This document shows, in pieces, positions 4,645 through 20,047 of a stretch of DNA of 64,000 nucleotides. Within the stretch, counting starts at the first letter, position 1; each line of letters starts with the position of its first letter. Source of the stretch: Paenibacillus sp. URB8-2 (GTDB lineage: Bacteria > Bacillota > Bacilli > Paenibacillales > Paenibacillaceae). A program made the translations under genes and the position numbers. A model generated the notes under the pieces. The model saw only the letters and a list, made by a program, of their open reading frames with translations, had not been told where the DNA came from and ran no database searches. The stretch spans positions 3,906,001 to 3,970,000 of the forward strand of contig NZ_AP023239.1 of NCBI RefSeq assembly GCF_013393385.1. Reading direction: 5' to 3'.

Positions 4645-4746
4645 CTGTTGTTATTCCCCCTGGAAAACGAAAAAAGAAGAGAGCTCGATAATAAACTCTC
4701 TCCCAAACTGTTTCAAAACAAGATTTTTTGAAAAACCCTTAAAAAC

Positions 4747-4831
4747 CAAGAATGCCGAGGACCGGGATCGAACCGGTACGGTAGTCACCTACCGCAGGAT
4801 TTTAAGTCCTGTGCGTCTGCCAATTCCGCCA
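4747..4831. repeat. attachment-site copy, left end of island
   Basis: 85 bases identical to 18575-18659, read as the 3' part of tRNA-Leu plus six bases beyond its 3' end. Weaker similarity (two mismatches, from about 4733) continues further downstream of the tRNA 3' end, as expected if this side is the original flank. Confidence 0.9.
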
Positions 4832-4836
4832 AACCC
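4753..4836 (-). pseudogene. truncated tRNA-Leu(UAA) remnant
   Basis: Carries the anticodon, variable and T arms of the intact tRNA at 18581-18666. Where the 5' acceptor strand GCCGGGG should be, it has unrelated sequence (AAGGGTT region) that cannot pair with CCTCGGC. It is therefore the leftover half of an integration event rather than a working tRNA. Confidence 0.85.
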
Positions 4837-4879
4837 TTGCTATGAGTGCACTTTTAGCTATCTGTTCGATGTGAGCTCA

Positions 4880-4920
4880 ACAGGATTCTTTAATAATGAA
4901 ATACAGAAAATCCTGTGTGC
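4880..4920. repeat. candidate integrase arm sites, left end
   Basis: An inverted pair: ACAGGATTC (4880-4888) and AATCCTGTGTGC (4909-4920). The same 12-mer occurs inverted at the right end (gcacacaggatt, 18509-18520), where it is again paired with an opposed copy. Short repeated motifs just inside both ends of a tyrosine-recombinase element are typical of arm-type integrase or excisionase sites. Confidence 0.5.
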
Positions 4921-5099
4921 TACTCTCAGTATAACATAAAAAAATGTAGAACACCAATTCCCATTTTATATACATATAATGTAATAGATAAATCTGCATA
5001 TACAAGGATTACTGTTAGGAGAGTCTGATTATCTTCTGTCGCTGACCTAAAGTGAAGCCTACATAGTATTTCCCACTACTCACTGTTTATGCGAAATAA

Positions 5100-7436
5100 T
5101 TAATCGAGCTCCAAAAGAAGTTTCTCCAGACTATCAAATGTTTTTTCTTTTATTCCGCCAATTTTTTTGCGTATTAAAGTAAAACCATTTCTGTCGCCAC
5201 TTTTAGCCCAAGTATCGCCATTCTTTTCATACTTGCCCTCTAATATCAGGGCGACTCTAACTCCAAGTTCGTTAATATCTAAGAGTTTTGTTGATATTGC
5301 CGCTTCCAGTAAATGCTTTCCCTTAGGGTCAATGACCCAAATACTCTTATTCGACCAAAAGATAAAATCTGGCATGAAATTCGCACTATCAGCTCCATAA
5401 AATGGAATAGGGATATTAAATCCAACTGATGTACTAGGGTTCCTTGTCCAATGTTTTCCTGTTCGATCGAGAGCTTCTGCGACACTAACTTCAAAGGGAT
5501 TCAGACCATTGTACTCGTTATGGACTGAATTTTTAAATTCGCGCACTTTATATCTTTCTTCTCTTAGAGTACCTACTCCCATTATATTAGGTGTAATTAA
5601 TCTAAACGAAGGAACTGTATAAGTTTCAATATCCAAACCTAATATCTCAATATTCTCCTCCAATTCCTTTTTTATTATAGGAATTAAGGAAGAGAGTGTA
5701 ATTAAAGCAGATGAACCCCATTGAATCTTTTGAGTCATTTTCGGATTAATTTGAAGGTCATGCGTAAATATATTCCCTGTACTATTTACAATTCTCGAGT
5801 CAATTCTCTGAAGTTGGGAAGAAACATACTCCCAAACTGTTATACTGTCACTATACTCTTTCTCCTCCTCACGACGAAGATAATCAAGTTCGCCTTTAGC
5901 TACCTCAAGAACCCTAGTTATAATATTTCCCTTAGCTCTGCATTCACTATCTGCGAAAAGCGGAACATACTTCAAAACAATACTGTCGTTATCTTTAGGT
6001 TTGCCACCAGTCATAAATATTTTTGGAACATGAGCAACTATAGCAGGAGCAACTTCTCTACTTTTCGGTAAAGGAAGATCATCTTTAATAATCAGTACTT
6101 CATGCCCTTCAATTTCCATTTCTTTTTGAGTCCTCTCTATAAGCAGGGCAAATTCCTCATCAGCAATATTAAAATAGAAATATGCAGAGTTCAAATCAGG
6201 ATCTTCAAAAAGTTCTGCATTAGGCTGTCTAATAAATCTACCTATTTTTTGAACCATATCGGTATGCGAGCGTCCACGATCATCTATGTAAGCAACGTAG
6301 GCTAGAGGTTCATCCCAGCCTTCTCTAAGAGTCAAATTCCAAATTATATGAGAATAGTTACCATTACGTAATATTTCTGGTGATCTCTCTTGTGGCTTTT
6401 TCCCTGTATATGTGTCATTTAGCCCATTCAATGATCCAAATCTGTCAACTGCGATATCTTTAGCACCGTTTAAATGAACAGCAATCTTGCTTTTTGGAAC
6501 ACCTAACTTCACCAATGACTCCCAGACATCGATTCCTCTTGACGAACTATTCACAATACAACACATTATTGGCGAAAGTTTCTCGCGTTCCAGCTTTATA
6601 GACAATTCCTCATATTTCACCTGTGCATCTTGAATAGCACTATCAGTAGAAGTATTACACTCTGTAAAATAAAGTCTTCTTTTTAGTAACCCTGCATCTA
6701 CAACTTGTCTTGTTGGCACAGCAACAGTTCGCTCTTTGAGAGCAAACTCTCGTTCTTCTTGATTGTTTCCAGGCAACAAATAGGCAAGGTCAGGAGGAAA
6801 TGAACTAGCTGATGCCAAGACAAAAGCAATTGGATTTAAATCTGCTAATCTGCGAAACTGTTCAACTGTAGCTCCATGTCCTTCATCATAAAATACATAA
6901 AGCTTACGTCTTCTGGATTCTTCAAGTTGTCCATACACATCAAATTTCGACAGCATTTCCCATCTTGAGGTTTTCCCATAAACTCCTGTTTTATGAATCT
7001 TCAATGCATCTCCATCCTGATTAAAAGAGGCTACGGTGGCAAGTAAAATAGTTAATCCAGAGGTTGAAGATAAGATATTGTTCCAATCAAAAGTACTCAT
7101 TTCATTTAACAAGAAAACTTCAGTATTGGGAGGTAACAAATCAGCGTACTTTCCACCTGGTCTTAAATTGTTGAATGTTTGTGAAATAACAGCCCCTCTT
7201 GATGTAGTCCACAATATAATCCCATTCTTTATCTGACTTGCAGACAATGCTAGTATGGGGGTTTTTCCAGCTCCAGTAATAGCCTTAAGTCTACATACTA
7301 CGGGTTCAAGTTCACCACTCGTTCTATTATAGAGAGGCTTCAATTTATTTGACGGATAACTGCTAACGAGTCCAGCTAGATCAGAGGCCGCATTTATTTG
7401 AAAAGGCTTGAGTTTATCAATTGTGATCAAGCTCAT
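5100..7436 (-). CDS. res: type III restriction enzyme Res subunit (DEAD-like helicase/endonuclease)
   Basis: 778 residues. The N-terminal half is a superfamily 2 translocase: Walker A TGAGKT (54-59) and motif II DEGH (184-187), with helicase motifs continuing to about 430 (HIIWNLTLREGWDEP, QKIGRFIRQP). The C-terminus carries a PD-(D/E)XK nuclease motif, PD at 689-690 and D703-P-K705 (WVIDPKGK). In type III systems Res cuts only in complex with Mod after ATP-driven communication between inversely oriented sites. The ATG overlaps the mod stop by four bases (7433-7436), so the two are translationally coupled. All expected catalytic residues are present. Confidence 0.92.
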   Translation of the reverse strand: MSLITIDKLKPFQINAASDLAGLVSSYPSNKLKPLYNRTSGELEPVVCRLKAITGAGKTPILALSASQIKNGIILWTTSRGAVISQTFNNLRPGGKYADLLPPNTEVFLLNEMSTFDWNNILSSTSGLTILLATVASFNQDGDALKIHKTGVYGKTSRWEMLSKFDVYGQLEESRRRKLYVFYDEGHGATVEQFRRLADLNPIAFVLASASSFPPDLAYLLPGNNQEEREFALKERTVAVPTRQVVDAGLLKRRLYFTECNTSTDSAIQDAQVKYEELSIKLEREKLSPIMCCIVNSSSRGIDVWESLVKLGVPKSKIAVHLNGAKDIAVDRFGSLNGLNDTYTGKKPQERSPEILRNGNYSHIIWNLTLREGWDEPLAYVAYIDDRGRSHTDMVQKIGRFIRQPNAELFEDPDLNSAYFYFNIADEEFALLIERTQKEMEIEGHEVLIIKDDLPLPKSREVAPAIVAHVPKIFMTGGKPKDNDSIVLKYVPLFADSECRAKGNIITRVLEVAKGELDYLRREEEKEYSDSITVWEYVSSQLQRIDSRIVNSTGNIFTHDLQINPKMTQKIQWGSSALITLSSLIPIIKKELEENIEILGLDIETYTVPSFRLITPNIMGVGTLREERYKVREFKNSVHNEYNGLNPFEVSVAEALDRTGKHWTRNPSTSVGFNIPIPFYGADSANFMPDFIFWSNKSIWVIDPKGKHLLEAAISTKLLDINELGVRVALILEGKYEKNGDTWAKSGDRNGFTLIRKKIGGIKEKTFDSLEKLLLELD

Positions 7437-9352
7437 TCTTCAGTAACTCCTTCTTCTTCAAGAGATAGAATACCAAGTTTAGCTAAAATAGCATCTGGAA
7501 TTTGATGAAACCGATATATATGATCCGCGAACGGACCTTCATTAGCTCCCGCATAAACATGGATTGGCTTTGAACAACCTATTGCTTCTGCTTCTGATAA
7601 AATTGCTTTTAGTACTTCAATGGTTAACGTCCTTCCTTCTTTACCAGCTTCCCAAACCAAAGCGATTCCCATTCCCGATCTAGTGTGACCAATTAAGTAT
7701 CTACAACCCTGAACTCTACAATCTATTCGATTAGACTCCTCATCAGCAACCTGCAAAATAACATCCGAAAGACTCTCTCTATTCGAGGCCATTATTTCCT
7801 CTTTAGTGATTGCCTTGTCGGCTTTAAAAAAAGTGAAACCAGAATCATATGTTTCATGTTGCTTTCCATCGGCCCAATTTCCCGAAATCACCCTTCTTAG
7901 CCGTTCTGCAGTCAGACTGTCAGTGTATTCCTTTTGCTTATAAATGGAATTTTTCCCGACATATCCGCCTTCAATTAAAATAAATCTTCTGTTACCCCCG
8001 TCCTCTTGGTTCATATCCAAAACTGAATGCCCCGTAGTCCCTGATCCCGCATACGGATCTAAAATGATGCTGTTTTTATCATTCCATGTAACCAAGTTAA
8101 ATAATTTGCTTAGAATAGTAGGATCTTTAGGATTCTTGAAAGCTTCGTTGCCAAATATCTTTTTTATCTGCATAACAGAACCACGGGAATCCTTTGTAAT
8201 AACTGATGTAAAGACATCCTTTTCTCTACCCTCAAACAAATATTTTTTAATCTTAGGCGTTCCTTTATCAACTTTTTTCCAAATTACTCTATCATCATTT
8301 ATTAACTTTTGAAATTCTTCTGGACTGGAGATAATCCATCCTTTTGGAGGCTTCCTTACTGGATTCTTAGTATCAGGATGAAAAATATCATAATCAGGTC
8401 CACCACCGCCTGGCCATGAAGGATCATCTTCTTTAAAGGGACCTAGTTCGGAGGATTTACTATCAACCCCTACATATTGTCTAACTGTCCAAAGAGGATT
8501 TTCTTTTTTTATTCCTTTTACAAACATTTTCAGACCCTCTGAGATAGAACTATAATCATCCTCAAACTCTTGCTGTAGACGATTGAATTCTTCCATAAAT
8601 GATTCAAGTCCTGGTTTTATCACTCGCCATTTCCCTTTAATTTTCGCCTTTGCGTCAAGCTCATTTACATTATTTGCCCAAACCAACATATATTCATGTC
8701 CCTCGGAAAAATATGTTGTATCATTCTTTCGTGATCTTTCCCATATTAAAGTTGACAACCTATTTTGTGGTTTGAAGATTTCTTCCATTAGCAGCCAAAG
8801 TCTAGGCAACTCATGTTCATCAATTGAAGCAATTATTACACCTGTTTGCTTAAGCAATTTTTTCGCTGCCCAAAGTCGTGGTGCCATATGATTAATCCAT
8901 TTAGTATGTCGATTCGGATCATCAAGAGAGACTAGTTCGGCAGTACGCCCTACTTCTTTCCTTTTTTGTTTCACTTCATTTTTATTAAGTAAGTAATCGT
9001 CATTATATGGAAAAGAATCATTTCCAGTATTATAAGGCGGATCGAGATAAATTACATCTATTTTGCCACGGTAATCTTTCAAAAGTGACGTCATTACTGA
9101 TAAATTCTCACCATCAATAATTAAATTATCTGATTTGTTTGGTGAAAATGATTTTTTTTGTATCGGAACTAGCTTGACAGGTTGTATTTTATCAGCAAGA
9201 AATTTTTGTCTACCTCGCCATTGTAAAGAGGAGTCCAAATTATCTTCACTTGAGATAGAAGAAAAAATCTTTCCTAATTTAATTTCTTCATCTTTGTCAA
9301 TGAGCAAACGTATTAATTCCTCTTTATCTAAATCTCCATAAAATGAATCCAT
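7433..9352 (-). CDS. mod: type III DNA adenine methyltransferase Mod subunit
   Basis: 639 residues. The catalytic motif DPPY (104-107, in VIYLDPPYNTG) comes before the SAM-binding motif LDPYAGSGTTG (near 435). This is the beta-class order typical of type III Mod proteins and some solitary N6-adenine or N4-cytosine enzymes. The middle third (about 200-400) is the variable region where target recognition normally lies. Mod modifies host DNA and supplies specificity to Res, which follows in the same operon with a four-base overlap. No simple sequence repeat suggesting phase variation was seen in the N-terminal part. The recognition sequence cannot be deduced. Confidence 0.92.
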   Translation of the reverse strand: MDSFYGDLDKEELIRLLIDKDEEIKLGKIFSSISSEDNLDSSLQWRGRQKFLADKIQPVKLVPIQKKSFSPNKSDNLIIDGENLSVMTSLLKDYRGKIDVIYLDPPYNTGNDSFPYNDDYLLNKNEVKQKRKEVGRTAELVSLDDPNRHTKWINHMAPRLWAAKKLLKQTGVIIASIDEHELPRLWLLMEEIFKPQNRLSTLIWERSRKNDTTYFSEGHEYMLVWANNVNELDAKAKIKGKWRVIKPGLESFMEEFNRLQQEFEDDYSSISEGLKMFVKGIKKENPLWTVRQYVGVDSKSSELGPFKEDDPSWPGGGGPDYDIFHPDTKNPVRKPPKGWIISSPEEFQKLINDDRVIWKKVDKGTPKIKKYLFEGREKDVFTSVITKDSRGSVMQIKKIFGNEAFKNPKDPTILSKLFNLVTWNDKNSIILDPYAGSGTTGHSVLDMNQEDGGNRRFILIEGGYVGKNSIYKQKEYTDSLTAERLRRVISGNWADGKQHETYDSGFTFFKADKAITKEEIMASNRESLSDVILQVADEESNRIDCRVQGCRYLIGHTRSGMGIALVWEAGKEGRTLTIEVLKAILSEAEAIGCSKPIHVYAGANEGPFADHIYRFHQIPDAILAKLGILSLEEEGVTEE

Positions 9353-9443
9353 ATATAAACCTCCAAATTTACTTGTGTGACAATCATGTAGTTAACAGGT
9401 TAGACCTAGAATGCAGCGAGAGGTTCTCTCTCCTCACTGCTGT

Positions 9444-9473
9444 ACTATAATATAGTTCTATAAAATCCGTCAA
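9444..9473 (-). promoter_or_regulatory. predicted promoter of mod-res
   Basis: On the minus strand TTGACG (9468-9473) lies 17 bases before TTATAG (9445-9450), about 95 bases upstream of mod. The leader between them and mod contains a hairpin, GCAGTGAG / CTCGCTGC (about 9412-9439). The rest of 9474-9676 is AT-rich with no gene I can support. Confidence 0.55.
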
Positions 9474-9676
9474 ATCCCTAGTTACCCCAAAACTGTTTAA
9501 CATTCCATTGCTATGCTCCTTTTATACAGTAAAAATTCTCCCTTTGCTCACTATGATCTTAATCGCTTTATTGGTATCGGCAATACTTCCTTAACTTTTC
9601 CATCATATTTGCTTTCCAAGCATATTTTATATTTATCTTATATTCCATAATTTATTAATAGTTGTTTTTTTGGAAT

Positions 9677-9698
9677 AAAAAAGCGTCCTACTGGACGC
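9677..9698 (-). terminator. intrinsic terminator of the PQQ-propeller gene
   Basis: On the minus strand GCGTCC-AGTA-GGACGC (9683-9698) is followed by TTTTTTATT. It lies 13 bases after the stop of the gene at 9711. Confidence 0.8.
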
Positions 9699-9710
9699 AC
9701 AATATAATCA

Positions 9711-11448
9711 TTATTGCCTTGTTAGTTTCTCCTTCCTAAATTCAATATCATACGTTAAGGTATTCTTGTCTGCATCCAAATTCAATTTAACTTGCTCAGA
9801 GCCATCAGCCTCTACAACCATGCTATATTCGTCTTCATAAGTAATCACAAAAGACTCCTTAAACGGTTCCCGCTCCTGATAATATTCCAGCGTTCCTCCA
9901 GAATCATCTATAAGTTCAAGATCGAAGCATAAAGTTTGCGAAGAATCGCACCATTTGCCTTCAAACCCACTGACACGCAGTTCTCCCTCCTGTCCCGTCT
10001 CTGCCGCTGCACTTGTTTTCTCCAAGAAATATTTCTGTTCATTATCCTTATATTCCAATACACCTGAGTCAAAGAGTATGAGTATGGTTGGCTTTTCCTC
10101 AATTCCAATTTTGGCCATCAGCGTTCCACTAGGATAAACATACTTAAACGGTTGAGGATTTTCTCCCCCCTGACTATAGAAGGTTATAACACCAGAAGTA
10201 CTGTCAGTAAAAGAAAGTTTAAATGCCATTTCATCACTGCCAGGTGTACTCCAATTTCCTTCATACAAGCTAAGATCATATAGCCCGTCTGAGTTCTTCT
10301 CCATTACTCCGTCATTAGTGATTGTATTATCGGCTGCTTTCACTTCCTGCTCATTGTCAACCGTTTGCTCTTTCTTTACTGCATTTTCGCCACCTTGATA
10401 TGCTGTGACTGTCTGCTCCATATTTGTAACAATGACACTCCCATTTACAAAGGCTGGAGGATACATAATGTAATCATCCACTGGATAATGCCAGAGCTTC
10501 TCACCAGTTTCTTCATTAATAGCTGTAAGGTTCGAGAAATCAGGCAAGTTCTTAAACTGCTCGTCTTGTCCATCAAAGATACCAATGTAAAGAGTATTCT
10601 CAATGACCGATGGTGTAGTTATCGCCGCACCCATCACCACGGAATTCTTCTCCTCTCCAAATTGCTTATTCCATGCTTCATTCCCAGAACTCGCATCAAG
10701 TGCGATTATGCTTCCACTCTTCTTTTCTGTGAGAAGCACCTTATCCTTTGATATTGTTATATCAGGAGAGTTCGGCAGCCCTAATAATTCATTGTCATAC
10801 TCCCATAATAGCTCGCCTGTATTGGAGTCATAGCTAGCAACATTGCCGCTAATATTAACGGCGATTATCTGCTGGTCCGAAGCAGCATAGCTATTTATAA
10901 CTCCTTTAGTGTTAAAGCTATGTAGTTCTTTTCCGTTCTTTTCATTAATAATAAGCATCTTTCCAGCAGCAGGAATGTATAGCTTATCCTGAATCACTGC
11001 AGGAGCTATGGTCGACGACCAGTCCCCCGCAAGCTTCCATGCTTCTTTTCCTGATTGGAGATCAATGGCTTTAAGAACCGCTGGCCCTTCCTTGGTTAGG
11101 TCTGTGATAAACACATGGTTAGTAGAAGCTACTGTAGTTGGGAATCTCGACGGAAACGCTAATTCAGAACTGAAATTATACTCCCACATTTCCTCTCCAG
11201 TTCCCTTCTGAACCGCATGCAAACCTGAGCTATCCGTATAAAGTACGCTATCACTTACAACTGCTGGAACTGAGGCCTGCCCGTTCACACTATGACTCCA
11301 CTTCTCTTCTCCCGTGGAAGTATCCACCGCATATAGCTTCTCAGCACTTGAGAAATATATATTCTCATCTGTAGTCAGAACCTGTCCAAAAATCTCATTT
11401 TCACCACCCTTAAAAACCCACTCTTCCGCAGCAACACCTTTGTTGCTA
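9711..11448 (-). pseudogene. PQQ-like beta-propeller protein, 3' part, interrupted by IS3
   Basis: The frame encodes repeated propeller blades with the W-containing signature (TGEEKWSHS, GKEAWKLAG, GELLWEYDN, GNEAWNKQF, GEKLWHYPV) over roughly 330 residues. A linker and two similar C-terminal modules follow (LYEGNWSTP..., FEGKWCDSS...). Such proteins are usually extracytoplasmic scaffolds. The frame runs past the first ATG (11327) up to the IS boundary (SNKGVAAEEWVF), so the start has been cut off; the 5' piece lies at 12703-12776. Even when rejoined, the N-terminus shows no signal peptide, so it may have been truncated before the insertion. Confidence 0.75.
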
Positions 11449-11516
11449 GACTAAAAAGTAGACATGGGGAACCGAGAATCGGGTAAAATGAACCTATCCA
11501 AATTCGAGGTGCTAAC

Positions 11517-11804
11517 ATGACGAAAAAATACGATAAAGAATTTAAACTGCAAACGATTCAGATGATCCAGGAAGAAGGAAAGGCGGTGGCGCAGGTCGCC
11601 CGCGAACTGGGGATAAGCGACAACACCCTGTATCGTTGGATGGCGGAATATAAGCAAGACGGTGCACAAGCCTTTCCAGGCAGTGGACAACTGAAAGCCG
11701 ACGATAAGGCAATGAGAGACCTTCAGAAACGCATTCGTGATCTGGAAGAGGAGAACGACATCTTAAAAAAGGCGATGCACTACTTCGCCAAAGACCGGCG
11801 CTGA
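11517..11804 (+). CDS. IS3-family transposase OrfA
   Basis: 95 residues. The N-terminal helix-turn-helix (VAQVARELGISDNTLYRWMAEY) binds the IS ends. The C-terminal leucine-rich coiled coil (LQKRIRDLEEENDILKKAM) mediates dimerisation. ATG preceded by GAGGTG. Near its 3' end lies the canonical slippery heptamer A-AAA-AAG (11765-11771), which would move ribosomes into the -1 frame used by OrfB to give the OrfAB transposase. Confidence 0.93.
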   Translation: MTKKYDKEFKLQTIQMIQEEGKAVAQVARELGISDNTLYRWMAEYKQDGAQAFPGSGQLKADDKAMRDLQKRIRDLEEENDILKKAMHYFAKDRR

Positions 11805-11851
11805 TCTATGCCTTCATCCACGATCATCGCTTCAAGTGCCGAGTCTCGAAG

Positions 11852-12667
11852 ATGTGCAAAACCTTTGATGTATCCCGAAGCGGCTATTACAAATGGACCA
11901 AGCGAAAAGCCAGCAAACGTGAAAAACGACGTCGCAAGTTGGAGCGGCGGATCCGTCGTATCTTTCTGGAATCGCGTCGATTATATGGAAGCCCCAAAGT
12001 AGCAAAAGAACTTCATAAGCAGGGCATACGTGTATCCGAGAAAACGGTCGCTCGGATCATGAAGGAGCTGGGTTTACGCTCTCGCACGGTGAAGAAATAC
12101 AAGGCCACAACAAATTCGAAGCACAACCTGCCCGTCCAAGAGAACGTGCTGAACCGCGAGTTTAATCCGGCAGCTCCAAACAAGGCCTGGGTGGCTGATA
12201 TTACGTATATCCCGACCGATGAGGGTTGGCTGTATTTGGCGAGCATCATGGACCTGTACAGTCGTAAAATCGTTGGCTTCCACATGGATCAGCGAATGAC
12301 GAAAGAACTGGTGTTAACGGCGCTGGATCGTGCCTACAGCCAGCAGCGGCCTCGTGGTGAGGTGCTGCATCATTCGGATCGTGGCAGTCAGTACGCTTCC
12401 CATGACTACCAAGCGCGACTGCGCACCTATAAGATGAAAGGCAGTATGAGCCGTAAAGGGAACTGTTACGATAATGCGTGCATCGAATCGTTCCACAGTG
12501 TGCTCAAGAAAGAACTCGTCTACTTGGAAAAATTCAAAACACGCAAGGAAGCCAAGAAACGCATTTTTGAATACATTACTTGTTTTTACAATGGAAAGAG
12601 AATCCATTCAGCAATTGGGTACTCTACGCCCAATGAGTACGAACGTATGTACCGATTCGCTGCATAA
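11852..12667 (+). CDS. IS3-family transposase OrfB (DDE integrase core)
   Basis: 271 residues from the first ATG. The frame is open back to the A6G slippery site in orfA and is exactly -1 relative to it, so the active product is probably an OrfAB fusion. An N-terminal HTH_21-like region (RLYGSPKVAKELHKQGIRVS) is followed by an rve catalytic core. The DDE triad is visible: D in WVADITYI, D in HHSDRGSQY and E in NACIESFHS. Mobilises the surrounding IS. Confidence 0.93.
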   Translation: MCKTFDVSRSGYYKWTKRKASKREKRRRKLERRIRRIFLESRRLYGSPKVAKELHKQGIRVSEKTVARIMKELGLRSRTVKKYKATTNSKHNLPVQENVLNREFNPAAPNKAWVADITYIPTDEGWLYLASIMDLYSRKIVGFHMDQRMTKELVLTALDRAYSQQRPRGEVLHHSDRGSQYASHDYQARLRTYKMKGSMSRKGNCYDNACIESFHSVLKKELVYLEKFKTRKEAKKRIFEYITCFYNGKRIHSAIGYSTPNEYERMYRFAA

Positions 12668-12702
12668 TTTTCTCGATTCTTTGTGTCTACTCTATTGACA
12701 GA

Positions 12703-12776
12703 GGTACAGATTTTTCTTTTTCTTCTTTAAAGTCTCCCGCAGCATCAGTTATGCGCTGCATGAAAGTGACGTACAT
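12703..12776 (-). pseudogene. 5' fragment of the IS-interrupted propeller gene
   Basis: On the minus strand MYVTFMQRITDAAGDFKEE... runs to VPLS at the IS border and continues in sense with NKGVAAEEW on the other side of the IS. A stop codon lies four codons upstream of the ATG at 12776. No convincing Shine-Dalgarno site and no signal peptide are present, so the original 5' end may already be lost. Confidence 0.5.
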
Positions 12777-12812
12777 ATAGATATACTTGCATTACAGGTT
12801 AAAAGGTTTGGA

Positions 12813-13025
12813 TTATAGATGAATTTTTTTATGAACTAGCCCTCCATCTGCTAGTATGACTCGGATTCTTCGCATATGGGTTTTAACCGTATTAAGTGGA
12901 ATTCCACACTCGCTGGCTATGACACTTAGCTTGAACCCCTTTATTCGTAGATAAGCAATCTGTGCCTGAACAGAATTCTTTCCTTCAATAAACTGGACAA
13001 TCTCTCTTTCCATCTCTTCCTCCAT
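12813..13025 (-). CDS. small helix-turn-helix protein, sigma-70 region 4-like
   Basis: 70 residues. A short acidic N-terminus is followed by GFKLSVIASECGIPLNTVKTHMRRIRVIL, the pattern of a sigma region 4 or LuxR-type helix-turn-helix. It lacks regions 2 and 3, so it is not a full sigma factor. Phage and satellite late-gene activators often have this size and shape. It starts 18 bases after the preceding gene on the same strand, probably as its operon partner. Confidence 0.6.
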   Translation of the reverse strand: MEEEMEREIVQFIEGKNSVQAQIAYLRIKGFKLSVIASECGIPLNTVKTHMRRIRVILADGGLVHKKIHL

Positions 13026-13043
13026 AAGCCGATTTCCTGTACC

Positions 13044-13637
13044 TTAAGTTATCGACCCCTTGGGACTCCAATAACTCAAATGCAATTCTGGCACCTTTAA
13101 ACGGTACTTGTGTGCTTTCCTGTCATATTTGAATCCTAACTGTTTAGTCATATAACCGTGCTTTAGACGTAGGTACAGAAACCTCCCCAGATACATTAAG
13201 AAACCGTCAGAAAGGTTGCCGTACCTGTGCTCCCGCTCCCAGAACCGCTTTACTACATCAGAAAAAACAAGATATGAATCCTGATACAGTCCGAGCATAG
13301 GCGGCTTCGCATACCAGCAACATGCCATCAGGCGCTGAATCGTACGGGAGATCACAACTTGGACTAAGGGATTGCTGAAAGTAGCATTTACATTTTCAGC
13401 AGTATGCGTCTTCTGACTCAACAACCCCTCCAGCAAACTATAAGCTTCTTCAATGAGTTCCATGGGATGCTCAACTTTGCATTCCATTTGACTGAACACA
13501 AGCTGGCTTTGACTTCGCCATAATTGAGCACGTTCAGTACTATGAAGAAGAGTACTACCTGAAGGCGGACTCTGCCATATCTTCATGAACACCACAAACT
13601 GTCTTTCAAAACCTTTCCTCCACGCTTGATAATCCAT
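13044..13637 (-). CDS. hypothetical island protein
   Basis: 197 residues, not recognised. Rich in aromatic and basic residues, with no signal peptide, transmembrane segment or catalytic motif that I can identify. ATG at 13637 follows AAAGGAAG by a normal distance. It leads a two-gene unit with the sigma-region-4-like protein, a pairing that would suit a regulator plus helper. Confidence 0.55.
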   Translation of the reverse strand: MDYQAWRKGFERQFVVFMKIWQSPPSGSTLLHSTERAQLWRSQSQLVFSQMECKVEHPMELIEEAYSLLEGLLSQKTHTAENVNATFSNPLVQVVISRTIQRLMACCWYAKPPMLGLYQDSYLVFSDVVKRFWEREHRYGNLSDGFLMYLGRFLYLRLKHGYMTKQLGFKYDRKAHKYRLKVPELHLSYWSPKGSIT

Positions 13638-13688
13638 AGATAACTTCCTTTCTTTTTGAGGTTAGTAGTAGTACTGCTGAATGCAAAA

Positions 13689-13759
13689 AAGGACAGATAG
13701 CAGCCGCAGTTAAAGGCACCGTTGCACCTTTGATCTACGAACTTCTACCTGTCCTACTG
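13689..13759 (-). terminator. probable terminator of the rep/nuclease operon
   Basis: On the minus strand AGGACAGGTAG (about 13745-13755) can pair with CTATCTGTCCT (about 13690-13700), followed by TTTTTT. The loop is long (about 45 bases), so the call is tentative. Confidence 0.4.
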
Positions 13760-13772
13760 TCCTACTGTCCTT
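13749..13772. repeat. three tandem 8-bp units (ctgtccta)
   Basis: ctgtccta, ctgtccta and ctgtcctt are perfectly consecutive, and an inverted copy (aaggacag) lies at 13689-13696. They sit in the gap downstream of the replication-type operon. They could be protein-binding iterons or part of the terminator hairpin. Confidence 0.6.
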
Positions 13773-13863
13773 CACTACATCCCATTCACAATCCTACGCA
13801 TATAGCTGTTCCAATAAACCTGGAATTTAATCCCCCTACAGCAAATTCCCTAGCTTAGCCTGA

Positions 13864-14811
13864 TCAGTATAACTGCCTAATTGGTTGATCCGGCCTATCC
13901 CAAAGAGCTCTGATCTCCTCCATACGCTGCTTATTCATGACAGCTCCAATGTTCCCCGCACCTACTGAACCCTGGCTTAAAACGTCAATAAATTGCTCTG
14001 TGAAGGCTCTCATGTCCATCGCTCTACAGATGTCTTCTACTGTAATGTAAACCATACGGCAGTATCTTGGATTCCATATCCCCAGCCTGTCTATCTGAGG
14101 ATGAAAGTCTGGAGTAAGGCAGGATAATATCCAATAGCCAATAAGCTGTCGCAGATGACGTATGGCATATTTGAAGCTGGATTCCACCTTAATCTCAATC
14201 AGCATATCATCCAGAATTAGATCCCCGTCAGCGCCGCCCACAAGCCCTGCAATAGCCCTTCCAAATGATGGATTACAAACAACTCCCCGCTCTGCTATGA
14301 AGAGTGATTGCCGTTCCTGAGTGGCTTTAATCAAGCTTCTAAGGTCAACAATATCTGCATCCACTACATTCAAAGGGCCCTGCACATCCATGTATCCAGA
14401 TCGGTAATAGCTTTCAAGATGGGCTAATACCAGGCTGTCTTGCAATAAAATATCGTCCAGTTCCACTTGACCGTTAATATACCTATTCCTGTGCTCTATT
14501 ATAGAAGCAAAACGGGCATTCAGATGTGCATCTGAAGTTGACCACCGCTCCAAGCCAGCAAATGCCGCAAGCTCTTCTGCTGTCTGTTCCTGATGGACAC
14601 CGTTTATTTTCTGCACATAGGCACGAAGCAGATAATCGTAGGCATGACCTATTAGTCCTGCTGTGGAATGCTTTCGCGGGACAATCTGTACAGGATTCGT
14701 TGGGAATGGATCTCCACCATCAACATTCTGGAAGTGCACCTTCATATTTGGGATTGTTGCAAATAGAGCCTTGATGTTTTTATCGAACGTCAGCAAGCTT
14801 GTCAGAGACAT
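13864..14811 (-). CDS. PD-(D/E)XK nuclease-like protein
   Basis: 315 residues from the ATG at 14811, which has AAAGGA seven bases upstream; the longer frame starts at a TTG without a ribosome site. Around residues 200-230 it reads GGADGDLILDDMLIEIKV followed by a helix with RQLIGYWILS. This is the D-xn-(D/E)-x-K layout of the PD-(D/E)XK nuclease fold (D in DGDL, E-I-K). Function unknown; candidates are a DNA-processing nuclease for element replication or a defence nuclease. It follows the Rep-like gene by 58 bases on the same strand. Confidence 0.6.
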   Translation of the reverse strand: MSLTSLLTFDKNIKALFATIPNMKVHFQNVDGGDPFPTNPVQIVPRKHSTAGLIGHAYDYLLRAYVQKINGVHQEQTAEELAAFAGLERWSTSDAHLNARFASIIEHRNRYINGQVELDDILLQDSLVLAHLESYYRSGYMDVQGPLNVVDADIVDLRSLIKATQERQSLFIAERGVVCNPSFGRAIAGLVGGADGDLILDDMLIEIKVESSFKYAIRHLRQLIGYWILSCLTPDFHPQIDRLGIWNPRYCRMVYITVEDICRAMDMRAFTEQFIDVLSQGSVGAGNIGAVMNKQRMEEIRALWDRPDQPIRQLY

Positions 14812-14869
14812 AGACTGTTCCTTTCTGGATTCATATCCATACCCACTAAAAAACTTTATCCTCAACCGA

Positions 14870-15889
14870 CTATGTTACATCCCGTTGACCCATTTCTCTT
14901 TTACGTGGCAGTCTTCTATACTCAGGACACCTTTCAGTTGCTATCCCTTCAACAGGAGTAAATGTTTGCAGATCAGCGAAGGGAAGAATTAACGGTGGCA
15001 ATGTTAGGTTTTCAAGTATGGGAGATATCCCAGCTTTTCGAAGCTTCCTTAAATACCTTCCTTTTGTATCGCTATACACACCGTCCAATGCATTGCGTCC
15101 ATATGCATCAATGAAACCCATCATGTGAATTGCCGCCGCTCCCCCATATAAAACCGTGAGCTTCTTTTGCACCTCATTAGCTGACGAGATTGTTAGATTG
15201 GCCATAGGAAGTGTATTAAAATACTTTGCAATCATTGAACCAGTTACTTCATCCGTGCACAGCTCACCAAACTTCCGAGAGTTTGCGTTTCCAAGACTTA
15301 ATGTTCTGTATCGCACTTCATATCTTAAGATTCCCTGACAGCGCTCAACCTCTTCCATAGTTACACCCTGCTCTTTCAGTACTTTCTTCTGCTTGTCATA
15401 AACCTGATGTTCCATGTGATCGCACTTAAATGATACAGATTCACCTGCATACGTTATTGTCTGGTACCTTGGCAGCTGAGCCTTGCTGAAGACCGATATA
15501 TAGTCCTGTACTTGATCTCCCACCTGAAAGTCGTGATAGGTATGCATTTGGCGGACTGACCATTCTGGAATGGGATCTGCTTCTATCTTGATGCCTTCCA
15601 GACACTTCTGTAACGTTAAGAATACCTGATCCCGATGACTATCATTTAAGGAGATTAGCGAAGAACCCGTTATCAGTTTTGGCAGTGATGAAATATGAAG
15701 TCTCAACTTGTAGTTCTGAACTGTGTATTGAACAACAACTTTACAGGTGGCTCCTTGAATTTCATATTTATAGCAATCATATTCTCCTGTTTCCTTGTGG
15801 TAGGTATTATGTGCCTTTGAGCTTAGAATCTGCATTGCCTCTTCAGAAAGTATTGCCCTGGTCTGCAACTCCAGTGTATCTATCTTCAT
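14870..15889 (-). CDS. replication-initiator-like protein (phage/plasmid Rep type)
   Basis: 339 residues; ATG at 15889 with AAGGAGG eight bases upstream. Segments such as HQVYDKQKKVLKEQ and ILRYEVRYRTLSL resemble the YDK...E and LRxEVR blocks I associate with gene II/X-type initiators of filamentous phages and small plasmids. I could not find a clear HUH metal motif, so the assignment is tentative. First gene of an operon with the nuclease-like protein, transcribed away from the XRE regulator across a shared operator. In an integrated island this would give a means of replicating after excision. Confidence 0.45.
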   Translation of the reverse strand: MKIDTLELQTRAILSEEAMQILSSKAHNTYHKETGEYDCYKYEIQGATCKVVVQYTVQNYKLRLHISSLPKLITGSSLISLNDSHRDQVFLTLQKCLEGIKIEADPIPEWSVRQMHTYHDFQVGDQVQDYISVFSKAQLPRYQTITYAGESVSFKCDHMEHQVYDKQKKVLKEQGVTMEEVERCQGILRYEVRYRTLSLGNANSRKFGELCTDEVTGSMIAKYFNTLPMANLTISSANEVQKKLTVLYGGAAAIHMMGFIDAYGRNALDGVYSDTKGRYLRKLRKAGISPILENLTLPPLILPFADLQTFTPVEGIATERCPEYRRLPRKREMGQRDVT

Positions 15890-16105
15890 GATGTTAACCT
15901 CCTTATACGGATGTAGTGCCTGTAACTTAGTTAACTACTGCAGAATTGCCGTACTTTTTGGTATTGGTATTAGAGACATTCTCTTTTAAACAGATGCTTC
16001 GATCTTGTGAGAACGAATTCCGCATCTTTACCGCTTTTTTTTAATAACTGTGAGCTATGAAGTTCTCAAAGATCATTGCACCTGAAACATTTCCAGGATA
16101 CGGTT

Positions 16106-16174
16106 ATAATACAACGTTGTAAACTTAAAGTAAAGTTTATTTTATATTTACTTTTCTAGTGTTTCTGTTATACT
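16106..16174. promoter_or_regulatory. divergent promoter pair with symmetrical operator
   Basis: An inverted repeat AAAGTAAA (16127-16134) / TTTACTTT (16147-16154) lies between the rep-like operon and the XRE gene. Each half-site supplies a TTTACT -35 box. Rightward: TTTACT, 16 bases, TATACT (16169-16174). Leftward: TTTACT, 17 bases, TATTAT (16106-16111). Repressor bound here would shut both promoters, as in a lysogeny-type switch. The remainder of the 314-base gap (15890-16105) holds no gene I can see. Confidence 0.6.
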
Positions 16175-16203
16175 GTACATAAGAATAAGGAGGTAGTTGT
16201 ATC

Positions 16204-16770
16204 ATGAAAAAGGACAACGCTGGAAGAATGGTGAATGGTGAAGAGCTTATGGAGTTTAAAGGTCTAACATTTAATGAACGAATTAAGTGGGTACGGGAGG
16301 AGTTAAATAAGATCTACATTGGCGAGTACAGTGTCAAACAAGTCGCAATAAGCAGCGGAGCAATTAGTCACGTGGGATTGTACAATCTGGAAAAAAGTAG
16401 TGATAGTTCGCCAAGGAAAAATACACTCAAAGAACTAGCGAGTTTTTATCAGGTGCCTCTGGCAATCTTCAGCGCAAATGATCCAGACCCATTCTTTCTG
16501 GGAAAACAATTTGGCGATGAAAACATTGAACAGAAGACAGCTGATATTCGTGATCCACTTTACAAGCTTCGTCACACCTTTGTTTTATACTCACCTGAAG
16601 GTAAGCCTGTTTTAGAAGAGGCAATCGAAGTGGACGTAAGACATATCGATGCAGAAGAGTGGTTACAGCGTCTTCAGTATGAAAAAGATATATTACAGAA
16701 GCGATTATTGAAGCAGAAGAAAATAGATGAAGCTTATGATTATTTAAACGGGAGAAAGCACCATGATTGA
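16204..16770 (+). CDS. XRE-type transcriptional regulator of the island
   Basis: 188 residues. After a short leader, residues 20-80 read as a helix-turn-helix of the Cro/C1 type (FNERIKWVREEL, SVKQVAISSGAISHVGLYNLEK, TLKELASFYQVPLAIF). The tail includes a charged coiled coil (LQRLQYEKDILQKRLLKQKKID). GGAGG precedes the ATG. It sits beside a symmetrical operator covering its own promoter and that of the rep-like operon, so it is the likely repressor that keeps the island quiet. It overlaps the next gene by eight bases. Confidence 0.75.
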   Translation: MKKDNAGRMVNGEELMEFKGLTFNERIKWVREELNKIYIGEYSVKQVAISSGAISHVGLYNLEKSSDSSPRKNTLKELASFYQVPLAIFSANDPDPFFLGKQFGDENIEQKTADIRDPLYKLRHTFVLYSPEGKPVLEEAIEVDVRHIDAEEWLQRLQYEKDILQKRLLKQKKIDEAYDYLNGRKHHD

Positions 16771-17407
16771 TTTGATGGCAGGAGTGGACATATCAACACA
16801 GGGGATAGAAACAGTCGTCAGCCTATCGACTCCTACATTCATTGACATTAGGAATAGCAGTGTTGAATACGCGCCCAACTTCCCCAATATGATGTACACT
16901 CTATGGGCGTTTATTTGTAGTCATAGAAGGTTCCCTTCACAAACTGAATATACGCAGTACTTTTTAAGTGTCCATTCCAGTACCTTATCCACTCTGAATG
17001 AAGCAGCAGTCAAGGCTAGACTGCTTCGATCATTCCCTTCCCTTATCAGGGAGATTCATTTTTATGCTCTGGTTAAGGAATCTGGCCTCTTTCAAGAAGT
17101 AAACTATTCAGCTAAATTGGATGTGGAGGATGGCACAGATCTTTCCGTAAAATGTGGAGGCTATGAATATGGAGTTTCTTGTTACGTGCAAACCGAAAGA
17201 TCTTTGGAGTACAGGAGAAGGAAGAGAAGCCGCCCGCGTACTCCAAAAACCAATTCGATTGAATTACCGCTGGACCTAAGCTCAGGCACCACAGTCAACG
17301 GGTGGATATTCTATAATAGAAATCATGTTCACGATTTGCTGGACCACATAATCGAATATGCTTCCAAGAACTACAATCAATGCTTCCTGGATGTTATGGG
17401 TGTCTAG
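16763..17407 (+). CDS. hypothetical island protein, possible PD-(D/E)XK-like fold
   Basis: 214 residues, translationally coupled to the regulator (eight-base overlap, GGGAG before the ATG). An N-terminal part contains FPNMMYTLWAFICSHRRFPSQTEY. The middle reads VEDGTDLSVKCGGYEYGVSCYVQTERSLEYRRRK. The D-x-L-x-V ... G-V-x-x-Y-V pattern is reminiscent of a nuclease core, but the catalytic E/D-x-K is not clear. It converges on the integrase gene. Its constant partnership with regulator and integrase would suggest a role in maintenance or transfer of the element; that is inference. Confidence 0.5.
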   Translation: MIDLMAGVDISTQGIETVVSLSTPTFIDIRNSSVEYAPNFPNMMYTLWAFICSHRRFPSQTEYTQYFLSVHSSTLSTLNEAAVKARLLRSFPSLIREIHFYALVKESGLFQEVNYSAKLDVEDGTDLSVKCGGYEYGVSCYVQTERSLEYRRRKRSRPRTPKTNSIELPLDLSSGTTVNGWIFYNRNHVHDLLDHIIEYASKNYNQCFLDVMGV

Positions 17408-17465
17408 CAGCAATGCATACAGTAAGGCAACCATACTCAAAATGAGTACAGTTGCCATCTTGTTA

Positions 17466-18407
17466 TTACCGTATCTTCCCAACCCGCTTCTTCTGCTGTA
17501 TCAAGCGATTCAACGGAGATGCCGTATTATGCTGTTCCTTCATATCATTGTCAGAGAGCCGCACATACCGCTTCGTCATGGTCATGTCCACGTGGCCCAG
17601 CATACGCTGTAGGCCGAATGCATTGCCGCCACCTCTCAGGAAGACCACAGAGAAGGCATGACGCAGCGCATAAGGCCAGATATGAATACCCAACTTCTTG
17701 CCGTACATTTCCACACGGTCACCCCATGTGTGTCTGGTCAGTGGCTTCCCTTCATTAGTACAGAAGATAGGTGCCTTTCCCTTCCACTCTTCGGGATGAA
17801 TGGAGATTAGCTCCGAGATAGCATCTACTGTGATTGGAGATAATGGCAGTGTGCGTGTCACTCTTGTCTTGGCTTTCGTAGCATCTATACGGATCTCATA
17901 GGCTCGGGGATGAAAATCGTCCTCCATTAGTCCAAAGGCTTCCTTCGGCCGTATGCCGCAATCCAGAAACATCAGGAACAGTGCATAGTCCCTCAACCCA
18001 GCGAAGGTTTCCTGATTGGGTAATGTGATTAATCGGGCCAGCATCTCTTCATCAATAGTTACGGACCTGCCTTCGTCCTTACGCTTTTTGAAACCATCCA
18101 GAGGGTTATCTTCCAGCACACCATGCTCACAGCACCATTTGAAGAAGGTCCGCAGGTACACTAGCCGATTGTTATAAGTGGCTGGCTTAATGCCTTCCTG
18201 GCTCAAATGCTCGCAGACGGCGTTCTCCAGCTCATCGTAAGAGTTTCTGGCTTCTGGATACCGTTTATACAGCAGCTGTATATGCGTGGAGTAGTCCAGC
18301 AGCGTCTGCTCGCTGATACCGTTTGCCTTCTTCCAAGTAATGAACCGATCCATAGCCTCTTCCATTGTTGCGGGGGTTTTCTTGATCTTGTTTACGCGTG
18401 ACGCCAT
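17466..18407 (-). CDS. int: tyrosine recombinase/integrase of the island
   Basis: 313 residues from the ATG at 18407 (AAAGGAGG upstream); the longer frame to 18503 has no ribosome site. N-terminal SAM-like core-binding domain (15-110), then the catalytic domain with R153 (CGIRPKEA), K near 178-180, R249 (PYALRH), H272 (LGHVDM) and the nucleophile Y281 (KRYVRL). The first histidine of the H-x-x-R box is Tyr246 here. It lies just inside the right attachment site in tRNA-Leu, the standard position for a site-specific island integrase. Confidence 0.93.
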   Translation of the reverse strand: MASRVNKIKKTPATMEEAMDRFITWKKANGISEQTLLDYSTHIQLLYKRYPEARNSYDELENAVCEHLSQEGIKPATYNNRLVYLRTFFKWCCEHGVLEDNPLDGFKKRKDEGRSVTIDEEMLARLITLPNQETFAGLRDYALFLMFLDCGIRPKEAFGLMEDDFHPRAYEIRIDATKAKTRVTRTLPLSPITVDAISELISIHPEEWKGKAPIFCTNEGKPLTRHTWGDRVEMYGKKLGIHIWPYALRHAFSVVFLRGGGNAFGLQRMLGHVDMTMTKRYVRLSDNDMKEQHNTASPLNRLIQQKKRVGKIR

Positions 18408-18476
18408 AAAAGAATCCTCCTTTGCTTCTACCTGTTTTGTGAAGAACAGATAGCTCAAAAGAGGACCTCTAGCAGG

Positions 18477-18521
18477 GAATCCTGTGCGGCTGTTGCAGCC
18501 CATTTAAAGCACACAGGATTC
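18477..18521. repeat. candidate integrase arm sites, right end
   Basis: GAATCCTGTG (18477-18486) and CACAGGATTC (18512-18521) form a perfect 10-base inverted repeat between the integrase start and the attachment core. The inner copy extends to gcacacaggatt (18509-18520), the exact inverse of the 12-mer at 4909-4920 at the other end. It may also act on the integrase promoter. Confidence 0.5.
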
Positions 18522-18574
18522 GCTATTTTTCTGGTTTGCGGAAATGAATCCAAAGGGCCAAAACCCTTATAAAT

Positions 18575-18659
18575 CAAGAATGCCGAGGACCGGGATCGAA
18601 CCGGTACGGTAGTCACCTACCGCAGGATTTTAAGTCCTGTGCGTCTGCCAATTCCGCCA
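18575..18659. repeat. attachment-site copy, right end of island
   Basis: Identical over 85 bases to 4747-4831. It is embedded in the intact tRNA-Leu gene, whose last seven bases on the 5' side (18660-18666) lie outside the repeat and mark the crossover limit. Confidence 0.9.
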
Positions 18660-18666
18660 CCCCGGC
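18581..18666 (-). tRNA. tRNA-Leu (anticodon UAA)
   Basis: 86 nt class II tRNA. Acceptor GCCGGGG pairs with CCTCGGC (one G-U), the anticodon loop CTTAAAA gives UAA, a long variable arm follows (GCGGTAGGTGACTACCGT region), the T arm is GGTTCGATCC, and the discriminator is A. CCA is not encoded. It is the integration site of the island and was restored by the element. Confidence 0.96.
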
Positions 18667-18706
18667 AGGGGTAAATTACTTTATTCCGCATAACGCGACA
18701 AGATAT

Positions 18707-18735
18707 ATAATATCATGGTTTCGGGTTTGACGCAA
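18707..18735 (-). promoter_or_regulatory. promoter of tRNA-Leu
   Basis: On the minus strand TTGCGT (18730-18735), 17 bases, TATTAT (18707-18712), about 40 bases before the tRNA 5' end. It lies outside the island, so integration leaves the tRNA under its native promoter. Confidence 0.65.
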
Positions 18736-18758
18736 TCTTATTTTTTTAACAAAGCATA

Positions 18759-18788
18759 GCCCGTACCGGCGCTTTACCGGATACGGGC
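18759..18788 (-). terminator. intrinsic terminator of the WGxxGxxG gene
   Basis: GCCCGTATCCGG and CCGGTACGGGC pair on the minus strand, 18 bases after the stop codon, followed by a T-rich stretch. Confidence 0.65.
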
Positions 18789-18805
18789 CATGGGTGCTGC
18801 TTCAA

Positions 18806-19174
18806 TTAACGGTGTTCGCGACTTCTGTTTCTCATGCCCGCCAGACCGAGCAGACCAATCAGGCCAAGCCATCCCCAGTCAACGTTGTTGTTCCGGTTGT
18901 TGTTTGCTGCGGTGGCACGGTAATTTCCTGTGCGCGTCGTGTTCGCGAGCGGAGTAACCGTATTGTCATTGGTGCGCGTCGTACCAACGCCTGTAGGATA
19001 GGTTGTCCGGTCTCCGCGGTACATATTGCCGGTCAGTCCATCATTGGTCCCAGTACCATGGATCGCGATATCTCCCGCTCCCACTGTCTCGGACGCGTTC
19101 GATGCATACCCGACCCCCATCAGACTCATCGATAAAACAGCAGTGCATGCAAAGCTAGCCATCAGCTTGTTCAA
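18806..19174 (-). CDS. WGxxGxxG family small envelope protein
   Basis: 122 residues from a TTG at 19174 that follows AAGGAGG by nine bases. An N-terminal signal peptide (MASFACTAVLSMSLMGVGYAS) precedes a Gly/Thr/Asn-rich low-complexity middle. The C-terminus reads WGWLGLIGLLGLAGMRNRS, a glycine-patterned hydrophobic helix with a basic end. That is the WGxxGxxG tail common in paenibacilli and related Bacillales, thought to act as a membrane-sorting segment. Function unknown. Confidence 0.75.
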   Translation of the reverse strand: MNKLMASFACTAVLSMSLMGVGYASNASETVGAGDIAIHGTGTNDGLTGNMYRGDRTTYPTGVGTTRTNDNTVTPLANTTRTGNYRATAANNNRNNNVDWGWLGLIGLLGLAGMRNRSREHR

Positions 19175-19307
19175 AGGTGAGTACCTCCTTGTTGTGTTAG
19201 TCGCTGTTAGCTTCCCCCTCATGTCTACACTCTATTCACAGCACAGCATACCGAATGATTTAACCTTCTGCCGGGAACACTAACTCGAAGAAAGGTGGGG
19301 TGAACTT

Positions 19308-19460
19308 ATGGATATACACAGCGACAGCTACAAAGTTGCAGCTCTGGACCAGAAGGATGCCATTGAAATCATCCGCAGCGCTGAGGCCAGCATTGCCCAA
19401 TTAACGGGCAGTCCCGTTACGTTGATCGCCTACGAAATAAGCGGAGATCCTGAAAGTTAA
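19308..19460 (+). CDS. small hypothetical protein
   Basis: 50 residues, MDIHSDSYKVAALDQKD... to ...ISGDPES. The ATG follows AAAGGTGGGG. It looks soluble and mildly acidic, with a predicted helix (DAIEIIRSAEASIAQL) and a strand (PVTLIAYEI). Not recognised; the good ribosome site and clean ends support it. Confidence 0.55.
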   Translation: MDIHSDSYKVAALDQKDAIEIIRSAEASIAQLTGSPVTLIAYEISGDPES

Positions 19461-19535
19461 ACGTACGTATCAATTGCACAATCGCAGCTGAACATAAGGC
19501 GCGGACTGCCGTTGGGCTGTTCGTGCTCACTTTAA

Positions 19536-19871
19536 CTAACCGGGATGTACTTCCAAGATACTATCCAGTCCGATCCACTTCCATTCGTCCGCCCATTGGA
19601 GCTTGATTTCCCGAGTGTGGGCATGAATGGAGGTGACAAATCCGCTCAGCTTCATCTCCTCCAACGAATCCCACAAAACAACCGTTATCCGAACATGCTC
19701 CCGCAGCGACAGAGACAGCGTTCTTTCCATCTCTTCCCGCTTCCGTTCATCAATCACGGGCTGCTTCCGGCGAAGTATCTCCCGCTGCCCTTCCGGAATC
19801 CGCTGCATCTGCTCTTTAATCATCATACGGCTGCTCTCCAGCAGCCCATTTCCCTCCAGTTTCTTGCCCAA
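19536..19871 (-). CDS. YolD-like family protein
   Basis: 111 residues from a TTG at 19871 with AAGGAGG nine bases upstream; the longer frame has no ribosome site. The order matches the YolD family: an N-terminal ESSRMMIKEQMQRI helix, a charged helix (DERKREEMERTLSLSLREH), then beta strands (VRITVVLWDSLEEMKLSGFVTSIHAHTREIKLQ...WIGLDSILEV). YolD proteins in bacilli often pair with UV-repair polymerase genes; no such gene is adjacent here. Exact role unknown. Confidence 0.7.
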   Translation of the reverse strand: MGKKLEGNGLLESSRMMIKEQMQRIPEGQREILRRKQPVIDERKREEMERTLSLSLREHVRITVVLWDSLEEMKLSGFVTSIHAHTREIKLQWADEWKWIGLDSILEVHPG

Positions 19872-19993
19872 AGGGAGTCGCCTCCTTTTTAAAATAACCC
19901 ACAAAGTACCTAGTTGTCGCGAAATAGGAACGTATGTTTGTATTATAACCACTGTTTATATTTTGAATCAACAAGAAAAAAATAACAGCGAAA

Positions 19994-20023
19994 AAGGCGC
20001 GGACAGCTGCTGCTGCGCGCCTT
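19994..20023 (-). terminator. intrinsic terminator of the lipoprotein gene
   Basis: AAGGCGCG / CGCGCCTT (20016-20023 with 19994-20001), followed by TTTTT on the minus strand, 25 bases after the stop. Confidence 0.7.
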
Positions 20024-20047
20024 CTTATTCGGACGGTTTGACCCGGT

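Follow-up and report, generated by a model that had tools for sequence, protein, structure and literature searches.

Introduction

Much of bacterial immunity is carried on islands, and how it is transferred on them is unexplained. Tycheposons are tRNA-integrated elements that combine a tyrosine recombinase with cargo. In the literature searched, the nearest concepts are the P4-like satellites of Enterobacterales, which are delimited by an integrase and join a conserved core to a hot spot with varied defense systems (PMC8628076), mobilizable elements (PMC11389934), and the phage-inducible chromosomal islands and streptococcal satellites, in which an integrase with regulatory and replication genes, and no structural genes, lies between attachment (att) repeats (PMC13376191).

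Here we describe a 13.8-kb island at a tRNA-Leu(UAA) gene of Paenibacillus sp. URB8-2, contained in a stretch of 64,000 nucleotides (contig NZ_AP023239.1, positions 3,906,001 to 3,970,000; hereafter the window, in whose numbering coordinates are given), together with its relatives in a sample of 394 genomes of the family Paenibacillaceae. The island is probably a partly decayed but excisable, helper-dependent element with defense cargo that would replicate by a rolling circle. With less than even confidence, we further propose that it represents an unnamed Paenibacillaceae family of helper-dependent elements, equipped with a Rep_trans-like initiator, a Cas4/MGME1-like exonuclease and XRE/p214 control, that is specialized in carrying exchangeable anti-phage systems; a single slot beside the distal att would accept type I, II or III restriction, Hma, Mza, HerA-SIR2 or helicase-Mrr, and one defense module would pass from an island to another whose initiator and recombinase are unrelated. 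With its core and one cargo slot, the family is a delimited, testable case of defense islands outside the best-studied hosts: some members share a near-identical integrase and differ in their defense, and others carry near-identical defense on very different cores.

Like the P4-like satellites, these islands are delimited by an integrase and join a conserved core to a place for varied defense systems; like the phage-inducible islands, they have integrase, regulatory and replication genes between att repeats and no structural genes that were recognized. They differ from the P4-like satellites in host phylum, in using a Rep_trans-like initiator where P4 has the alpha replicase and in a slot that lies far from the integrase; P4 components such as psu, delta, sid and alpha were not recognized in the islands, although no search by name was made. 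Compared with the phage-inducible islands, no packaging gene was recognized, and several relatives exceed the 7-20 kb given for that class in PMC13376191. Among the records returned by open-access PMC searches, no title or abstract opening describes the island family.

Delimitation of the island

The region is an integrative element with a specific insertion site in a tRNA gene: it has terminal tRNA repeats and an integrase, and in a relative the site is unoccupied. The tRNA-Leu(UAA) repeat at the two ends (4732-4831 and 18560-18659) is 98% identical over 100 nt, with two mismatches, and encloses the perfect 85-nt match, beginning at 4747 and at 18575, from which a sequence-only reading of the window had first proposed an island. 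ARAGORN predicts tRNA-Leu(UAA) at 18580-18667 and at 4754-4839. As that reading had stated, the intact gene lies on the integrase side, where it coincides with the second attachment copy (18560-18667, minus strand), and the distal attachment copy (4732-4831, minus strand) is a truncated tRNA in which inspection reveals other sequence in place of the 5' acceptor strand. The tyrosine integrase (17466-18503, minus strand), likewise noted in that reading, is 97% identical to its counterpart in Paenibacillus sp. FSL R5-0345 (genome G214) and adjoins the intact tRNA. In genome G205 the site is uninterrupted: once joined, the two window flanks align with it across a single tRNA-Leu, 715 of 894 positions being identical. 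This layout is more than a chance association, because repeat and integrase recur together in six other tRNA-Leu islands and because G205 presents the empty site.

Just inside each end lies an inverted pair of the 8-mer ACAGGATT, at 4880 and 4909 (4880-4916) on the distal side and at 18478 and 18513 (18478-18520) on the integrase side. G214 has ACAGGATT pairs at identical spacings, 29 bp at the distal end and 35 bp at the integrase end; apart from the pairs, the 8-mer occurs just once more in each stretch that was scanned, in the window and in G214. Owing to their position and their conservation in G214, the pairs look like integrase arm sites; the 9-mer CACAGGATT occurs three times in the window, where 0.47 matches are expected, and 2 of 100 shuffles reach this count of three.

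An island family with a variable defense slot

The window island belongs to a family of Paenibacillaceae elements whose insertion site is tRNA-Leu(UAA). At E<=1e-3, the replication initiator (Rep) of the island has matches in 28 of the 394 genomes and its nuclease in 23, most of them distant. Seven genomes have both, far apart in G239 and side by side in the remaining six, namely the window, G214, SY21-1 (G361), P. ihuae (G185), 1011MAR3C5 (G359) and Saccharibacillus qingshengii (G385). Five of these six islands are inserted at tRNA-Leu; that of G385 lies at ssrA with a 105-bp duplication and serine recombinases. All eight delimited islands, seven at tRNA-Leu and one at ssrA, are flanked by duplicated att sequences of 65-105 bp with 94-100% identity, and their sizes range from 13.8 kb, in the window, to 32.3 kb. 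The order integrase-core-cargo-att recurs across the islands. Neither of the outcomes that would speak against a mobile family, the same genes without the tRNA duplication or genes without co-occurrence, was seen.

The sequence-only reading took Rep and nuclease for an operon at the core of the element. The two are indeed together in six islands, but their genes converge in four of the six, and a universal Rep-nuclease core is ruled out by G337 and G028, which retain the integrase, XRE, RadC, sigma-like and PQQ genes with no island homolog of Rep or of the nuclease; a distant Rep homolog is found on another contig of G337. The integrase itself has matches at E<=1e-70 in 41 genomes, of which five were already delimited, 16 more were fetched and 20 were not viewed. 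In 12 of the 16 fetched loci a tRNA-Leu lies beside the integrase, yet the wider gene set is present only in G337 and G028, and two others share one additional gene; the cargo of the 14 loci other than G337 and G028 was outside the scan. That these 14 loci share little else with the window, and that G337 and G028 lack Rep and nuclease, would be expected if integrases unrelated to each other had simply brought defense genes to a tRNA hot spot, with no coherent element behind them. We consider such a plain genomic island improbable in view of the six islands with adjacent Rep and nuclease, the seven with RadC and the recurrent gene order.

The slot adjoins the distal att, and its content varies between islands. 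In the window, it holds the mod-res operon that had been recognized from the sequence. The Mod subunit (7433-9352, minus strand, 639 aa) matches MTase_III (E 1.9e-91) and the EcoP15I Mod structure 4zcf_A (E 4.5e-50), and by these similarities is of the EcoP15I type. Its gene overlaps that of the putative Res subunit (5100-7436, minus strand, 778 aa), which matches REase_III weakly (E 2.3e-9) and ResIII below the cut-off (E 0.011), shows helicase and nuclease motifs on inspection and gave no match to solved structures by sequence. Cargo other than mod-res beside the same core at tRNA-Leu, which the sequence-only reading had suggested looking for, does occur. Across the relatives, the slot holds type I restriction-modification (RM) in G214 and in the ssrA island of G385; Hma in G185 and G359, the latter also with a HerA-type ATPase and a SIR2-like protein (assigned from Pfam domains only); MzaB-E with an m5C methylase in G028; an m5C methylase with PDC-M02B in G337; and, in G361, a HamB-like helicase with an Mrr-like nuclease, a candidate set and not a complete named system. 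For G185 and G385, the cargo assignment follows from similarity to G359 and G214. Of 20 slot proteins, chosen by hand and mostly among the larger ones, 15 matched PADLOC models at E<=1e-20 (8/10 and 7/10 in two sets), the five without a match at this threshold being the window Res, the G361 Mrr-like protein and three proteins of G337. In a control that was not size-matched to the slot genes, 1 of 55 flanking chromosomal proteins of 200 to 1500 aa matched. These assignments suggest that the family carries defense cargo in an exchangeable slot beside the distal att.

Comparisons between islands bear on how this exchange proceeds. Between the window and G214, identity is 97% for the integrase, 90% for p197, 86% for the nuclease, 83% for p214, 78% for the PQQ protein and 56% for Rep, and the cargo is unrelated (type III versus type I RM). 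Four right-flank proteins are 33-63% identical, and two left-flank proteins have no match in the fetched G214 stretch. This pattern points to horizontal transfer. Conversely, G214 and G385 share HsdR and HsdM at 84% and 90% identity, yet their HsdS are 33% and their Reps 29% identical, and the Hma proteins of G185 and G359 are 71-94% identical on islands whose Reps are 26% identical. On these identities, core, cargo and recombinase are shuffled between islands.

Replication initiator and nuclease

The 339-aa Rep (14870-15889, minus strand), one of the ORFs that the sequence-only reading had correctly listed, is by structure prediction and homolog alignment a member of the Rep_trans-type fold, which is common to initiators and MOBT relaxases. 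The predicted fold resembles Rep_trans initiators (RepDE, pSTK1 Rep) and the filamentous-phage protein G2P (PF05144). Residues Y164, K166, D120 and E191 are invariant and D4 nearly so among 11 sequences, with K169 in place of a glutamate; Y164 and K166 form a candidate catalytic Y-x-K motif, which in Rep_trans initiators goes with three acidic residues. At the sequence level, the window Rep has no Pfam match, PF02486 included; 1 of 16 homologs reaches PF02486 (E 0.017) and 2 of 16 match PF05144. Searches of solved structures by sequence, with the single sequence or a profile, gave nothing relevant, and plasmid and phage records gave zero matches. Rep thus resembles RepDE, pSTK1 Rep and G2P in predicted fold and differs from them in lacking detectable sequence similarity to solved structures and in its chromosomal integrative setting. 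Structural matches to TATA-binding proteins were put down to a common strand arrangement.

The fold also brings to mind integrative and conjugative elements such as ICEBs1 and integrative mobilizable elements with Rep_trans/MOBT relaxases, with which Rep shares the predicted Rep_trans-type fold and a candidate Y-x-K motif. The island could then be a mobilizable element: Rep would be its MOBT-like relaxase, working at an origin of transfer (oriT), and a conjugative element in the same cell would supply the mating apparatus. A common fold and active site link MOBT relaxases with Rep_trans initiators (PMC6499999), and mobilizable elements with Rep_trans relaxases are reported in streptococci (PMC7563843). 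We nevertheless judge this reading unlikely. No coupling or mating genes were recognized in the island, no oriT is known in it, although no search aimed at one was made, the host genome has a single match to the one model used, PF12846 (VirB4-like ATPase), which falls below the cut-off, Rep lacks the architecture of a helix-turn-helix (HTH) domain plus a PF02486 match, and no plasmid record matches it.

Two observations extend the distribution of such initiators. A second initiator-like protein of G214 (L031:6637-7425), encoded in a segment that is missing from the window, matches PF02486 weakly and below the cut-off (E 1.2e-4). Distant Rep homologs of 301-302 aa at loci L036, L037, L040, L041 and L046 stand with an XRE-like gene, a serine-recombinase-like gene, small ORFs and an IS110-like transposase and adjoin RHS/WapA-type repeat ORFs (RHS and IS110 labels by eye); to the eye, these loci look like another mobile module with the Rep initiator family, lodged in toxin-like loci.

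The neighboring gene (13864-14811, minus strand; 315 aa from the MSLTSLL start), also present as claimed, encodes a PD-(D/E)XK exonuclease-like protein. The pattern D...(D/E)xK plus QxxxY is the motif rule for the MGME1/Dna2/Cas4 exonuclease group. In the island protein, D215, K226, Q240 and Y244 are invariant across 18 sequences, and the 15 best structural rows of a fold search are all MGME1/Dna2/Cas4/ACE1 exonucleases; core fold and motif place the predicted structure in this group. It differs from these exonucleases by its low identity (10-13%), the absence of a Pfam family and extra helices, and sequence searches against solved structures returned nothing relevant. Relatives occur on plasmids of several phyla, in an SPbeta-type phage and on haloarchaeal replicons. 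Of note, they adjoin a Y-family DNA polymerase gene or sit one gene from it in four of nine regions opened, one of the nine being unannotated; the cases are the SPbeta-type phage BUCT082, two Bacillus records and an Acinetobacter plasmid (from the set L176, L177, L178, L182 and L183). Another relative lies beside cas3 in a haloarchaeal plasmid.

Regulatory genes and decay of the window copy

Divergent from Rep is an XRE-like repressor gene (16204-16770, plus strand), again as listed from the sequence, whose product matches HTH_3 weakly (E 0.0052) and is 50-51% identical to proteins of G185 and G385. The intergenic region contains an inverted repeat found by inspection, AAACTT-N6-AAGTTT (16121-16138), that is a candidate operator. 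The overlapping p214 gene (16763-17407, plus strand) is conserved at 83% in G214 and 49% in G185 and interrupted in G361; Pfam, structure and phage searches gave p214 no family, solved-structure or phage match.

The main genes of the island had been inventoried correctly; what had been overlooked is an IS3-type insertion (11441-12708, plus strand; rve E 2.3e-28) and the PQQ/BamB-type propeller ORF (9711-11440, minus strand; PF13360 E 1.4e-29) that has lost its 5' end at the insertion and measures 626 aa in G214. The insertion element, its ends placed by inspection, has three further copies in the genome at 99-100% identity. Inspection detects 3-bp target duplications at two of these three and none at the window copy; the fourth copy was not resolved. 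The window insertion lies at the junction of a gap relative to G214, the closest relative: 7,563 bp (merged 15437-22999 of G214) are absent, with RadC and a number of regulators among the genes concerned. Because RadC is present in seven relatives and missing here, loss in the window is the likelier direction, so that this copy would have lost about 7.6 kb beside the insertion.

A second lesion affects a sigma-like regulator, which is a single ORF in G214, G337 and G028 and two ORFs in the window, with an in-frame stop between them. The N-terminal part is p197 (13044-13637, minus strand), 90% identical to the G214 ORF and ending at this stop, and the remainder is a 70-aa sigma-region-4 part (12813-13025, minus strand; PF08281 E 9e-6). 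Both ORFs are present as the sequence-only reading had described them; their status as separate proteins, and with it an independent small sigma-region-4 gene, is doubtful given the single ORF of the three relatives. The window copy appears to be a derived and possibly defective member, the possible defect in regulation or transfer following from the loss of about 7.6 kb and the split sigma-like gene.

Pressed further, the absent segment, the truncated PQQ gene and the split regulator might mean that the island is already a fossil, no longer able to move and retained solely because of its restriction system. This strikes us as rather unlikely, since the integrase, Rep, nuclease, XRE and p214 ORFs, the att copies and the arm-type pairs are all uninterrupted, and the 99-100% identity of the three other insertion copies implies that the loss may be recent.

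Proposed mechanism and class

Our preferred reading, the partly decayed, helper-dependent defense island, can be laid out as follows. The integrase recombines the 3' segment of the tRNA, leaving the intact tRNA beside itself and the truncated copy at the far end, as the anatomy and the empty site show. The XRE repressor, with p214, would silence the divergent Rep-nuclease genes; upon derepression and excision, Rep would nick the circle and drive its rolling-circle replication, with DNA ends or single-stranded intermediates processed by the exonuclease, roles suggested by fold and motifs. Spread may occur through a helper phage, a conjugative element (perhaps with Rep as relaxase) or DNA uptake, no packaging or transfer machinery having been recognized. 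The type III RM cargo would protect the host and favor retention of the island. Excision of the window copy may still be possible, but its regulation or transfer may be impaired.

The sequence-only reading suggested that the island could belong to a family of satellites or mobilizable elements without virion or conjugation genes. Its view of a site-specific element with defense cargo and a conserved control and replication core is supported, and either class is a possibility; Pfam and PHROGs scans of the island proteins, very short ORFs excepted, recognized no virion or conjugation protein. Genes for packaging or capsid interference, a small terminase for example, were likewise not recognized in these scans, though remote homologs may be missed. 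If the island were a phage satellite, of a new family, XRE would be derepressed by a helper phage, and the island would be excised, replicated and packaged in helper capsids. The integrase, the divergent XRE/Rep control without structural genes, the sigma-like and anti-repressor-like regulators of the relatives, the 14-32 kb size and a defense cargo like that described for P4-like satellites (PMC8628076) are all compatible with this scenario. We regard it as possible but incline against it: besides the missing terminase and capsid-interference genes, the host genome has no match to terminase model phrog_2, the single model used, which in a control matched 11 of 14 genomes; a scan of IMG/VR with the nuclease gave two loci, both distant; no phage record matches Rep or p214; and two relatives exceed 27 kb.

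Additional observations

Two further genomes of the genus of G385 (L047 and L048) contain islands with Rep, XRE, RadC and paired serine recombinases and no nuclease homolog, ssrA being near in L048. In G195 (C1:5087165-5114817), a 28-kb stretch contains four tRNA-Leu-like matches, an arrangement suggestive of tandem islands at one tRNA gene. The sole PADLOC match of the control set is a Cas12f/TnpB-like protein (22451-23686) outside the island. Two island proteins that are 23% identical to each other (L032:14573-15418, without Pfam match, and L154:11116-12060) look like degenerate reverse transcriptases without the YxDD motif. Finally, the islands of G359 and G185 encode, as judged by eye, MORN-like repeat proteins (L035:5634-6932 and L033:7421-8026).
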